64,000 nucleotides of DNA from Bifidobacterium breve. Its GTDB lineage: Bacteria; Actinomycetota; Acidimicrobiia; Acidimicrobiales; Acidimicrobilacustridaceae. The position numbers and the translations under genes are program-made. The notes under the pieces are model-generated. The model worked only from the letters and a program-made list of their open reading frames with translations. It was not told the origin of the DNA and did not search any database. Position 1 is the stretch's first letter; every line of letters begins with the position of its first letter. The stretch is taken from positions 1 through 64,000 of the forward strand of contig CAMAQM010000009.1 in assembly GCA_945860545.1 (NCBI GenBank), written 5' to 3'. Positions 16,394 through 52,552 of this stretch are shown here, piece after piece.

Positions 16394-17299
16394 TCAGTGC
16401 CCGACGGCACCCCCGGTGGTGCGGACCCACATCCCGCCCGTCTCCACCGGCGACGGGGGCAGACCGGCGACGACTCCCGCCCAGCGCTGCGGGTCATCGA
16501 TCTCAAGCGCAGCGTTCCACAACGCCACCTCGAGTCCGGCGTTACCGACCAACAGCGCCCGCAACGCGTACGCCTCGTTGACCGCCACCCCGCTGCGCAA
16601 CCACCGCCTCGGATAGCTGAACGCAGCGAACACGTCGTGGACGTGGATCCACACGCCACTGGCGAGCGTGGGGATCACCTCCAACAAGAGGTGATGGACG
16701 TCAGACCCGGCCCGCATCACGTGGCTGGAGTCGATGCACAACACGTCACCGGCACACAGATCGCCGAACACGGAAGCGTCGACGTCCTGGACCGGTTTGG
16801 GTTCGAGCCGGCCGGCGAGATCGGACGCAGCGACGAGCGAACGGAGCCGTTGGGGATCAGGGTCGATGAACGTCACGTCGCACGGTGCACCGGTGCGATC
16901 AATCACGTCCAACAGCAGCGCCGAGGAGTACCCGCAGCCGACCTCCACGATGCGCGCCGGGGTCAAGCGGGCGACGACCAACGCACACAGCAGTGCGTCC
17001 GAACCGGTGAACCACGTGTTGTCCAAGCGGTAGCGCACCGGGTCGTCCGAGGCGATCCACGCCACCATGTCGGGGAACGAGGACATGAGCTCGTCGACGA
17101 GCAACCACTGCCGGTCGAGTCGAAGGTCGATGCCGGGGAACGCATCGTTGGACACCGTGGCGCCACCCGGGTCCGCCTCAACACGGTCAAGGTCGTCGGG
17201 CGAGGGCAACGGCGAGTACGGGTGCCCCCGGGGCACGTGGAGGTAACGGCGATCGGTGAGGATCTGCCACGCCACACCGAGTCGTTCGGCGAACTTCAC
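16394..17299 (-). CDS. Class I SAM-dependent methyltransferase
   Basis: A 301-residue soluble protein. The SAM-binding motif I is IVEVGCGYSSALLLDVI, followed by an acidic strand (VTFIDPDPQRL) and IDSSHVMRAGSD, which resembles the Methyltransf_24 group that acts on small molecules or sugars. The last part contains a conserved-looking HVHDVFAAFSYP. It starts 24 bases after the kinase gene on the same strand, with a GAGGTC just before the GTG, so it is probably co-transcribed with it. The substrate cannot be named. Confidence 0.75.
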   Translation of the reverse strand: MKFAERLGVAWQILTDRRYLHVPRGHPYSPLPSPDDLDRVEADPGGATVSNDAFPGIDLRLDRQWLLVDELMSSFPDMVAWIASDDPVRYRLDNTWFTGSDALLCALVVARLTPARIVEVGCGYSSALLLDVIDRTGAPCDVTFIDPDPQRLRSLVAASDLAGRLEPKPVQDVDASVFGDLCAGDVLCIDSSHVMRAGSDVHHLLLEVIPTLASGVWIHVHDVFAAFSYPRRWLRSGVAVNEAYALRALLVGNAGLEVALWNAALEIDDPQRWAGVVAGLPPSPVETGGMWVRTTGGAVGH

Positions 17300-50606: not shown

Positions 50607-51077
50607 TCAACCACCAGACCGTGCCCGCTTGGCGATCAGCCGCTGATACTTCACGACGGCAGCGTCATAGGCCTCAGCGAACAGTGGCTGCATCTCCTTG
50701 AACGTCGCCTCCGAGGGCGAAAGCACCTGCACCCACCCCATCCATGAGTAGATCGGGTGCGGCATCAGTACGTCCGTTGCAGCGAACTCGTTCCCGGTCC
50801 GCACGACACCGCCCTTGGGTGGGCGCGCCGGTCGTGGCCCGAACAACTGCTCGTAGCGCTCCCGGGGTAGGCCGAGCGCAACCCGGAACACGTCAGGGCG
50901 GTCAAGCTGTGACGTCGTGTCGTTGGCGCCGTCGTGGTCTTTGATGGTGCAGAAGTAGACGCCGTTGGGGAGCACCGCATCAGGGTTATAGAACAGCGAC
51001 GTCTCGCCCCAGGTTGCCTTCGGAGCCAGACCAGCGAACCTTGTCGTGAGTGCATCAACCACACCGTCAGGCGTCAC
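50607..51077 (-). CDS. DUF6194 family protein
   Basis: A 156-residue soluble protein of a family found in many actinobacteria. Family-like segments are WGETSLFYNPDAVLPNG, LDRPDVFRVALGLPRE, LMPHPIYSWMGWVQVLSPSE and the C-terminal AEAYDAAVVKYQRL. I know of no assigned function. The base composition here is noticeably less GC-rich than in neighbouring genes. The gene lies between the esterase and a tRNA-like repeat. The start at 51077 is a GTG; the frame is open a little further upstream. Confidence 0.75.
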   Translation of the reverse strand: MTPDGVVDALTTRFAGLAPKATWGETSLFYNPDAVLPNGVYFCTIKDHDGANDTTSQLDRPDVFRVALGLPRERYEQLFGPRPARPPKGGVVRTGNEFAATDVLMPHPIYSWMGWVQVLSPSEATFKEMQPLFAEAYDAAVVKYQRLIAKRARSGG

Positions 51078-51122
51078 AATCGAGACGATACCGCCACGCT
51101 CCCGAAGGGTGAGAAAGACAAC

Positions 51123-51223
51123 AGCCCCACCACCAAACCTGCCGGAGGGGCTTCAGCTGTCAGACGCAGACATCTAGGTGCTCACCTCGTGGTGGGGTAG
51201 GTACCCAGGTCCGAACCCCACTG
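51123..51223 (-). repeat. Degenerate copy of the tRNA-Ala 3-prime region and terminator
   Basis: A diverged direct repeat of 51685-51780. At 51174-51193, 16 of 20 bases match 51738-51757, which covers the CCA end and 3-prime flank of tRNA-Ala; all four differences are transitions. At 51139-51156 the sequence matches 51701-51720, part of the tRNA terminator, apart from small gaps. A T-arm-like GGGGTTCGGACC remains near 51205-51220, but no complete cloverleaf can be drawn. It may be the scar of an element that integrated at the tRNA gene, or a decayed tandem tRNA. Confidence 0.55.
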
Positions 51224-51303
51224 GCGGCGGGCGTTCTCGTGGGTGCCGCAAGACACGATCCAGCGATCAGCGCGATCCCACTCGGTGTTCCGGAACCGAT
51301 ACG

Positions 51304-51648
51304 TCACAGGACGAGCAGCAGACCCACAACCAATTCAATAACAAGGCCGGCGAGATTCTCCCGTGACGCTGACTTATCGACCGCCACCGACAGAAGTCTC
51401 GCAGCAAACGCCCCCAGCCACGCCAAGCCCAACACCAGTGCGGCTTCGTGCGTCCCGATAGCCAACACGGCAACGCCCGCTCCGATAAACAGACCCCCGT
51501 AGGTCGCCCGAAACTCGGAGAGCCCCAGAGGAGTGGGCAGCGACACGCCAACGACCCGACTCACCCGGGTTGGAAACACAAGCCCGAGGAGTCCCGCTGC
51601 GACGGAGATTGAGGCACCCACATACGCGGTCCACGTCATCTCGGGCAT
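51304..51648 (-). CDS. DUF4345 family membrane protein
   Basis: A 114-residue protein with about four helices. It contains FRATYGGLFIGAGVAVLAIG and ends NLAGLVIELVVGLLLVL, the pattern of the DUF4345 family, whose function is unknown. It lies between tRNA-Ala and the degenerate copy of the tRNA end, on the same strand as the tRNA. It could be cargo of a small integrated element. Confidence 0.7.
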   Translation of the reverse strand: MPEMTWTAYVGASISVAAGLLGLVFPTRVSRVVGVSLPTPLGLSEFRATYGGLFIGAGVAVLAIGTHEAALVLGLAWLGAFAARLLSVAVDKSASRENLAGLVIELVVGLLLVL

Positions 51649-51684
51649 TGTACGGAAAGCCAAGGCGGTGGCCCATGAACAACA

Positions 51685-51717
51685 AAGTCCCCGCCAGCGA
51701 CTGCCGGACGGGGACTT
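51685..51717 (-). terminator. Terminator after tRNA-Ala
   Basis: A perfect 9-base-pair stem (AAGTCCCCG / CGGGGACTT) followed by TGTTGTT in minus-strand sense. It ends 37 bases after the CCA. Confidence 0.75.
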
Positions 51718-51753
51718 CAGTAGGTAAGTCCCGAATCCTGGGTACTTACCCCG

Positions 51754-51830
51754 TGGTGGAGGTGAGGGGATTCGAACCCCTGGCCTCTTCGATGCGACCG
51801 AAGCGCTCTAGCCAACTGAGCTACACCCCC
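51754..51830 (-). tRNA. tRNA-Ala (anticodon CGC)
   Basis: A full cloverleaf: 7-base-pair acceptor stem GGGGGTG / CACCTCC with the G3-U70 pair that identifies alanine tRNAs, D-arm GCTC...GAGC, anticodon stem CTTCG / CGAAG with loop GTCGCAT (anticodon CGC, reads GCG), 5-base variable loop, and T-arm AGGGG-TTCGAAT-CCCCT. The discriminator base is A and the CCA end is encoded. Confidence 0.97.
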
Positions 51831-51853
51831 GAAGGGATCGTCACGATACCGCA

Positions 51854-51880
51854 GGGTCGGGGCCTTGCCCCAACGGACCC
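51854..51880 (-). terminator. Hairpin after the SepX-like gene
   Basis: A GC stem GGGGC / GCCCC with outer pairs GGGTC / GACCC. It ends at the SepX stop and lies 23 bases upstream of tRNA-Ala, separating the two transcripts. A TATCGT sequence at 51843-51848 could be the tRNA -10 box. Confidence 0.45.
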
Positions 51881-52552
51881 TCAGTCGAGGTCGTCGTAGG
51901 ACCCTACGGCCACCAGGCGGCGGCCGTAGGAGGCGTCCCGGTAACCCGATGCCGGTTCGCTCGGACCGTGGTAACCAACGGCGAGGTCTTCCACCTCTTC
52001 GTAGCTGTCACCCAGCACGTCAAGATCCTCGGCGTTGCGGCTGATCGTGCGCACCTTGAGTGCCCGCTCGATTTCCACGCTGCGGGCACGCAACAGCAGT
52101 CCGACGTAGGCGACGAAGGCTGCGCCGACGATGACGGCGAGAGGTACGAAGATCCCACGGGCGACGAGGGCAAGCAGCAGAGCGGTTGCCGTGGCTGTGG
52201 CGAGTCCGAACACGAAACGGCGTCGACGCTGCTGGGCTTCGCTCAATCGCAACGTCCGATCGAGCCGCGCAGCGATTGGGTTGTTGACCGACGGGAGCGG
52301 ACGGCCGGTGGCGAGCACACTCAGTCGTTCGGCCGGGCCGAGTTCGGCACCCGAGGAAATCGGGTTCAGCGACGAGTAGGCGTCGTGCCGGGTTCGCCAC
52401 GACGGGGTCGCACGCTCGAGCACGGAGAGGTGACGGTTGAACGAGGCAATCGAATTGGCTCCGCGGCCGGTGGTGTTGCGACGGTCCCGCCACGTGACCC
52501 AGCCGAACCAGGTCCACGCCACCACCAGTACGACCACTACGAGCAATGTCAC
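51881..52552 (-). CDS. SepX/GlpR-like divisome membrane protein
   Basis: A 223-residue protein with one N-terminal helix (residues 3-21), a cytoplasmic part with SIASFNRHLSVLERATP, two further helices (112-131 and 133-154) after a RRRRFVFG stretch, and an acidic C-terminal tail. This layout and the position downstream of galU and a MoeA/Glp gene match SepX of Streptomyces and GlpR of Corynebacterium. In those organisms the protein is the membrane partner of the gephyrin-like protein Glp in cell division. The function is inferred from that family. A TTCGGAGC precedes the GTG. Confidence 0.7.
   Translation of the reverse strand: MTLLVVVVLVVAWTWFGWVTWRDRRNTTGRGANSIASFNRHLSVLERATPSWRTRHDAYSSLNPISSGAELGPAERLSVLATGRPLPSVNNPIAARLDRTLRLSEAQQRRRRFVFGLATATATALLLALVARGIFVPLAVIVGAAFVAYVGLLLRARSVEIERALKVRTISRNAEDLDVLGDSYEEVEDLAVGYHGPSEPASGYRDASYGRRLVAVGSYDDLD

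Follow-up and report, generated by a model that had tools for sequence, protein, structure and literature searches.

A 559 bp stretch of the window, the 64,000-nucleotide length of DNA analysed here, has the look of a transposon copy. This unit (positions 51194–51752) contains one gene and is framed by 16 bp inverted ends (15/16 identical), with ACCAC on both outer sides, one of the two copies lying inside the end of a tRNA-Ala gene (Table 1). We lean towards the interpretation that it is a non-autonomous member of a family of transposons whose insertion sites lie directly behind tRNA and tmRNA genes, a family that looks undescribed. The observations behind this reading are both ends and the direct repeat, the homology of the ends, the protein folds, the conservation of residues and the proximity of RNA genes; from these we infer which protein cuts, which one aims and that gene-only units are mobilised in trans. 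A search of the 64 kb with up to three mismatches produced no third match to the 16 bp inverted end, and no far end belonging to the older DUF6194 unit was found in the window. A bare-site genome that fixes the boundaries of the unit was not found, which counts against the transposon reading; in genus g207 tRNA-Leu genes without an element are seen, but they share no common far flank with which to place boundaries. The gene upstream of the tRNA (51881–52552) shows a weak likeness to the divisome protein SepX/GlpR (27–29 bits, below the cut-offs).

Table 1. Features of the tRNA-Ala locus in the window.
Feature	Positions	Strand	Basis or remark
tRNA-Ala(CGC), target gene	51754–51830	−	ARAGORN
First copy of the direct repeat, ACCAC (CCACCAC when taken as 7 bp), which overlaps the CCA end of the tRNA	51753–51757	−	Duplication length approximate
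RNA-proximal terminal inverted repeat (right end) of the unit	51737–51752	−	15/16 versus 51194–51209
Terminator-like hairpin within the right end	51684–51717	−	By eye; conserved behind tRNA-Ala in G001 and G002 (alignment)
DUF4345 gene, sole cargo of the unit	51304–51663	−	Pfam
Far (left) end: arm of ∼90 bp and terminal inverted repeat (51194–51209)	51194–51300	−	Matches G001 and G279 left ends
Direct repeat copy 2, ACCAC	51189–51193	−	Sequence
Degenerate right end of the older neighbouring unit, with its own hairpin	51110–51188	−	Aligned with tRNA-adjacent right ends
DUF6194 gene, first gene of the older unit	50607–51077	−	Pfam

The initial annotation had described a diverged repeat of the tRNA-Ala end some 563 bases away and interpreted it as a possible integration scar. 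The recurrence itself is real: the tRNA-Ala end and terminator (51640–51860, minus strand) align with 51080–51300 with a local score of 63, compared with 41 at the highest-scoring unrelated site scanned in the window and a maximum of 49 among 1000 mononucleotide shuffles, and the core matches (51212–51151 and 51773–51715) give an offset of about 561–564 bases, in agreement with the distance proposed. As a repeat of the tRNA, however, the description holds only for the last few bases of the gene. On the tRNA strand the part common to both copies runs from the CCA end downstream through the hairpin, and the left part of the second copy (51194–51300) consists of ∼90 bp of element-specific, non-tRNA sequence; the 'second copy' is the far end of the 559 bp unit together with the near end of an older unit that precedes DUF6194. 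An old tandem tRNA at this position was rejected, as a tRNA scan, suggested along with the annotation and run with ARAGORN, calls one tRNA only and none at the second copy, and the left part matches the left ends in G001 and G279.

Both neighbouring genes were correctly recognized, with Pfam scores of 45.5 bits for DUF4345 between the copies (cut-off 26.5) and 160 bits for DUF6194 next to it (cut-off 27.1). The region is also GC-poor, as had been noted: the unit has a GC content of 62.8% against a mean of 68.8% for the window (s.d. 2.6), ranking 12th among 1269 overlapping windows, and the DUF6194 stretch ranks sixth with 62.5%. A profile search of the window frames of 30 residues or more gave no remnant of either of the mobility proteins described below at E 1 or better, consistent with the remark that no integrase is left. 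The arrangement is not universal among relatives, since the repeat models match none of the tRNA-Ala loci from outside the genus (L009–L035, with ∼1.5 kb of flank each). Relatives carry fuller elements at tRNA 3′ ends, which supports the interpretation as an insertion scar; the kind of element differs from the one first envisaged, as the relatives encode a DDE transposase and a recombinase-fold protein mostly without catalytic residues. The repeat in the window is an insertion scar for which an ordinary integrase origin is unlikely.

Two congeners, G001 and G002, were at hand. At the tRNA-Ala of G001 a right end of the same kind is followed by ∼6 kb of other genes and then by a left end and an older right end. 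Beyond these are a broken DUF6194 gene, a second left-end/right-end junction interrupted by an IS481-type insertion sequence, and finally another DUF6194 gene, this one open, with a partial left arm behind it. The insertion sequence occupies L036:11811–12895 and has CCTAGA on both sides. The element next to the tRNA contains a broken transposase gene, a broken recombinase-fold gene, a broken EcoRI-type methylase gene and an open GmrSD/HNH gene, in the same order as their homologues in the G144 element. The DUF6194 protein of the window is 75% identical to the second G001 copy and a right end precedes both; the two G001 copies are 93% alike over 635 bp, one of them being broken, and may be a plain tandem duplication. 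G002 has a right end behind its tRNA-Ala, where the contig stops ∼700 bp past the tRNA, and no match to DUF6194 was obtained in this genome. A neighbour-gene search of genome contigs for syntenic loci confirmed none. Most simply, DUF6194 lay beside tRNA-Ala before the window species and G001 parted, and the units between them inserted later; these later insertions would be that of DUF4345 in the window and that of a larger restriction–modification element in G001. Elsewhere in the G001 locus (L036:17849–18055), the start of a neighbouring gene is present in duplicate and joined to the portion of tRNA-Ala that contains the anticodon arm, with another left end next to it, indicating a further old insertion and rearrangement there.

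A sequence model of the left and right ends was scanned over 248 genomes of the order and produced matches at E 0.01 or better in seven, the genome of the window included. Those in G144 and G266 were convincing on inspection, and four with E values of 0.007–0.009 were dropped. G001 was evidently outside the draw of 248 genomes, since a match would have been expected. In G144 the element lies at a tRNA-Ser and encodes a 530-residue DDE-type protein, a 329-residue protein that has no match in Pfam, NCBIfam or PADLOC, an EcoRI-type methylase, a GmrSD/HNH nuclease and AbiD. The mobility genes of this element are open, as are those of the G279 element (12.2 kb, at a tRNA-Met), which has ACCAA on both sides. 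The G279 and G144 proteins are sisters with full support in both protein trees.

The left end of the window unit aligns with that of G279 with a score of 47 (maximum of 1000 shuffles 33), with G266 at 41 (shuffle maximum 35) and with the three G001 copies at 69, 54 and 41 (shuffle maxima 37, 37 and 38, respectively). Several features of the ends speak against the transposon reading. The score against the G144 left end (31, shuffle maximum 32) is not significant alone, the flanking repeat in G144 is imperfect, and the left ends are, judged by eye, similar to the T-arm of a tRNA (GGTTCGGA), a resemblance shown by integrase sites too. A further such feature is found in G279, where 15 bases identical to the 3′ end of tRNA-Met recur ∼90 bp past the left end (L101, oriented position 16421; score 30, control maximum 22), next to their own hairpin; this copy looks like the displaced tRNA fragment of a classical integrase island, although an older unit would fit as well. 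Motif and HMM searches did not locate the left ends of the remaining elements, except for a weak candidate in L120.

A search with the 329-residue protein located the recombinase-fold gene at 23 places in 19 of 298 genomes of the order, and a profile search found the protein in 14 of 396 genomes of the phylum, some genomes being present in both draws. Neither this protein nor the DDE protein was found in the genome of the window. The transposase gene adjoins the recombinase-fold gene in 17 of the 22 non-self loci by tblastn, and an 18th was detected by profile. A tRNA or tmRNA 3′ end faces the pair at ∼80–250 bp from the end of the transposase gene in 15 of 23 assessable pairs (9/13 in the order and 6/10 in the later phylum set, four of these six from outside the order), at most 14 of the 15 being independent because L146 and L147 represent a single insertion shared by two species. 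The targets are tRNAs for Ser, Met, Cys, Leu, Val and Gly and, three times, tmRNA, and target type shows no clear sorting on the recombinase-fold tree. Before this count 11 of 34 places were dropped, either because the contig ends at or near the transposase end (L102, L105, L107, L111, L112, L115 and L119) or because the transposase is absent or cut (L110, L117, L154 and L155); L116 and L118, with no more than 578 and 520 bp of sequence beyond, were nevertheless counted as misses.

The eight pairs not beside an RNA gene count against the transposon reading, as does the lack of clear sorting by target type; they are the first pair of L103, L114, L116, L118, L144, L145, L148 and L149. Rfam revealed no other RNA gene in L103, L114, L116 or L118 beyond the known tRNA, and in L144 a tmRNA lies 1613 bp away. 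The modules at L144, L145, L148 and L149 (family f75) have two successive recombinase-fold genes ahead of the transposase gene; these modules have no RNA gene at the usual distance, so that this branch may use another target. The insertion shared by L146 and L147 (G553 and G425) is at the same tRNA-Leu, although in G425 the right end is missing its first 127 bp.

The right ends carry a signature of two direct repeats 22–23 bp apart, which is present in 13 of 17 right ends and in two of 31 control tRNAs (Fisher p = 1e-6). The 17 ends include the three congeneric tRNA-Ala ends, and L147 was left out because its right end is deleted. The right end of the window does not have this signature (7/11 matches at a spacing of 18), which weighs against the transposon reading; it is missing also from G116, the tRNA-Met end of G279 and G494, and is present in G001 and G002. 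Behind the tRNA-Leu(GAG) of G712 (L178) is a right end like those of G553 and G692, with neither mobility gene in the 19 kb stretch; this is perhaps another scar of the window type.

The model of the DDE protein (pLDDT 83.6) has Tn5 transposase as its nearest fold (Z-score 18.7 over 297 residues, rmsd 4.8 Å), compared with Z-scores of 9.8–10.0 for chains of Tn7-type transpososomes. Asp134, Asp237 and Glu411 are invariant in 16 of 16 sequences, and we take them for the catalytic triad. As modelled, the protein has an RNase H-like DDE core closest to Tn5, placing it in the IS4/Tn5 superfamily. The model of the partner protein (pLDDT 82.4) has a tyrosine-recombinase fold (XerA, Z-score 14.7 over 164 residues, 3.5 Å) and also resembles the MrpR/YopR and SroF proteins. 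In an alignment of 22 recombinase-fold proteins (excluding G144; columns read by eye) the first catalytic Arg is kept in one and the Tyr in seven, while the second Arg (RLRATW) is kept in 21. Arg...Arg...Tyr competence, judged from these columns, appears mostly lacking across the family and mixed in the clade of the window: the G279 and G144 proteins retain the Tyr and not the first Arg, and the broken G001 frames have both in place (CGLRAGE and LDGYRAY). The closest relatives of the window have the least dead recombinase-fold proteins, which counts against the transposon reading. Among the five members scanned with PF00589, the best E value was 0.029, for L109 only.

These residues bear on the main alternative, which we consider less likely than the transposon reading yet plausible, namely that the window holds the remnant of a tRNA-targeted island in which, at least in this clade, the recombinase-fold protein itself recombined its attP with the tRNA-Ala 3′ end. 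The attL would then be on the tRNA side and the attR at 51.1–51.3 kb, with the recombinase lost, the units accreted in tandem and the DDE protein an accessory or a passenger. The 3′ ends of tRNA and tmRNA genes are the classic target of integrases and the fold of the partner protein fits such a role, as do the resemblance of the two ends and spacer to paired core-type arms, the T-arm-like box of the left ends, the Tyr kept in G279, G144 and the broken G001 protein, the first Arg kept in the last of these and the displaced-looking tRNA-Met 3′ end near the far end in G279. The genome of the window contains two PF00589 loci (C44 and C38) as candidates for an integrase acting in trans, with no tRNA in the stretches read. 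Against this explanation, 21 of the 22 aligned proteins lack the first Arg and 15 lack the Tyr, including those of the tmRNA-adjacent loci L104 and L108, and the DDE gene is a constant downstream neighbour with an invariant D-D-E, which makes it unlike a passenger.

Within either mechanism there is the further question of whether the window unit ever moved alone. The chances appear evenly balanced that it did not, being instead a larger autonomous element that lost its mobility genes by internal deletion and retained its last cargo gene, or that it was a single-gene unit mobilised in trans. Cargo genes lie beside the left end in tRNA orientation in both G144 and the window, and decay is common, as in the broken genes of G001 and the truncated right end of G425, all of which is in line with deletion. 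Two congeners nevertheless have one-gene units with complete or partial ends (that of DUF4345 in the window, the two DUF6194 copies in G001), and DUF6194 directly follows a right end in both genomes. A tandem duplication around the tRNA-Ala terminator, produced by unequal crossing-over and since decayed, would require no mobile element and would explain why the alike stretch extends from the CCA end through the hairpin. It is very improbable, since the second copy has in its left part non-tRNA sequence that resembles the left end found beside a tRNA-Met in another genus, the unit is framed by inverted ends and a direct repeat, and a different insertion is present at the same tRNA in G001.

Under the transposon reading, the Tn5-fold DDE transposase of autonomous members should cut and join at the inverted ends, and its tyrosine-recombinase-fold partner, mostly without catalytic residues, probably recognizes the RNA-gene end or the element ends. 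As a derivative of enzymes that recognize tRNA ends, the partner would probably bring the complex to the RNA gene, for which TnsF of Tn6022 offers a precedent. Insertion would duplicate the CCA end as a short direct repeat and keep the tRNA intact, so that the site would be reusable, older units would be pushed outward and units would stack. The order of events in the window would most simply be DUF6194 first and DUF4345 later, the DUF4345 unit having lost, or never had, the two mobility genes, either as a deletion remnant or as a single-gene mini-element. We propose only tentatively that Actinomycetota harbor an undescribed class of elements in which a mostly defunct tyrosine recombinase steers a Tn5-fold transposase to tRNA and tmRNA 3′ ends. 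If so, every insertion would restore a site fit for reuse, and the tRNA would serve as a port where defence modules, and single-gene units too, accumulate one behind another in the manner of cassettes; the unit of the window, a lone gene with an end on either side, would be the most reduced form encountered in this analysis.

Restriction–modification genes are present in all three cargos examined (G001, G144 and G279), the G279 element carrying a type I set. DUF4345 shows a weak match to the NCBIfam 'phage infection protein' family NF051484 (53 bits, cut-off 120), which serves only as a lead, and neither DUF4345 nor DUF6194 has a match in PADLOC. A second DUF4345 gene in the genome of the window (L002:1292–1799, G000:C21) encodes a protein 58% identical to the first and ends beside a tRNA-Leu(TAA), convergent with it. 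This locus was considered as a sister insertion and rejected on account of the convergent orientation and the lack of a match to the repeat models; L002 showed no transposon end. Beside the paralogue an inverted repeat of ∼35 bp (89%; L002:1744–1778 and 2389–2424) surrounds a 141-residue open reading frame, and in G036 (L077, G036:C115) a DUF4345 gene lies a few hundred bases from a tRNA-Leu(TAA). Should the proposal be correct, this would be the second case after TnsF of a tyrosine-recombinase derivative acting as a transposon guide, here paired with a Tn5-like transposase and using RNA genes as safe harbours, and the pair would be a candidate of compact size for inserting DNA at chosen sites, as well as a simple means by which restriction–modification genes spread in Actinomycetota. 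It would also be a warning that not every island at a tRNA gene is the work of an integrase, and the inverted ends, the repeats 22–23 bp apart and the T-arm-like left end would provide a signature for finding single-gene units that carry no mobility gene.

Islands of tyrosine integrases and cis-mobilisable elements stack in tandem at tRNA 3′ ends, and integrase-less units flanked by both ends are known. Insertion at a tRNA or tmRNA 3′ end with a flanking direct repeat is found here too; the catalytic residues, however, are mostly absent across the family and a DDE transposase is the conserved neighbour. The likeness to the Tn5/IS4 superfamily and IS1182 lies in the fold, the invariant D-D-E with its R...E motif and weak matches to NF033551 (IS1182; 21.4 bits for the G144 DDE protein, cut-off 270) and PF13751 (19.3–23.4 bits for the DDE proteins, cut-off 25.1). 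It differs in these scores, all below their cut-offs, and in the fixed partner gene, the cargo and the site preference. The Dada DNA transposons of fish are reported to insert in tRNA and other small-RNA genes (PMC8869645). They are like the present family in this choice of site but are eukaryotic, and we know of no recombinase-fold partner of theirs. In the MrpR/YopR protein of phage SPbeta, a prophage repressor, a tyrosine-recombinase fold binds DNA without recombinase activity (PMC10516654), another instance of a recombinase fold turned DNA-binding protein, although not as part of a transposon.

Parallels in targeting come from elements related to Tn7. CAST I-D homes to a tRNA-Leu gene via TnsD (PMC10293859), and thus resembles the present family in programmed insertion at a tRNA gene with cargo, but differs in its TnsABCD machinery and CRISPR effectors. 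Tn6022 is a Tn7-like element with a short TniQ and TnsF, the latter having N-terminal zinc fingers and a partial catalytic domain; its inactivated tyrosine-recombinase domain directs the element to comM (PMC10293859). By contrast, the elements considered here have a Tn5-fold transposase, the G144 element has no Tn7 parts, and the sites lie beside tRNA and tmRNA genes; TnsA, the AAA ATPase TnsC and TniQ are absent from the five frames that fill the G144 element and from the eight G279 frames scanned. As to a target selector of the TnsF kind, the partner protein here has the tyrosine-recombinase fold with the catalytic residues mostly lost across the family, and a selector role would be assumed by analogy. 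No account of a DDE transposase paired with a recombinase-fold protein was found in open-access PMC full text, subscription papers and preprints lying outside this scope. The logic is known from Tn7-like elements; the parts and the sites differ here.
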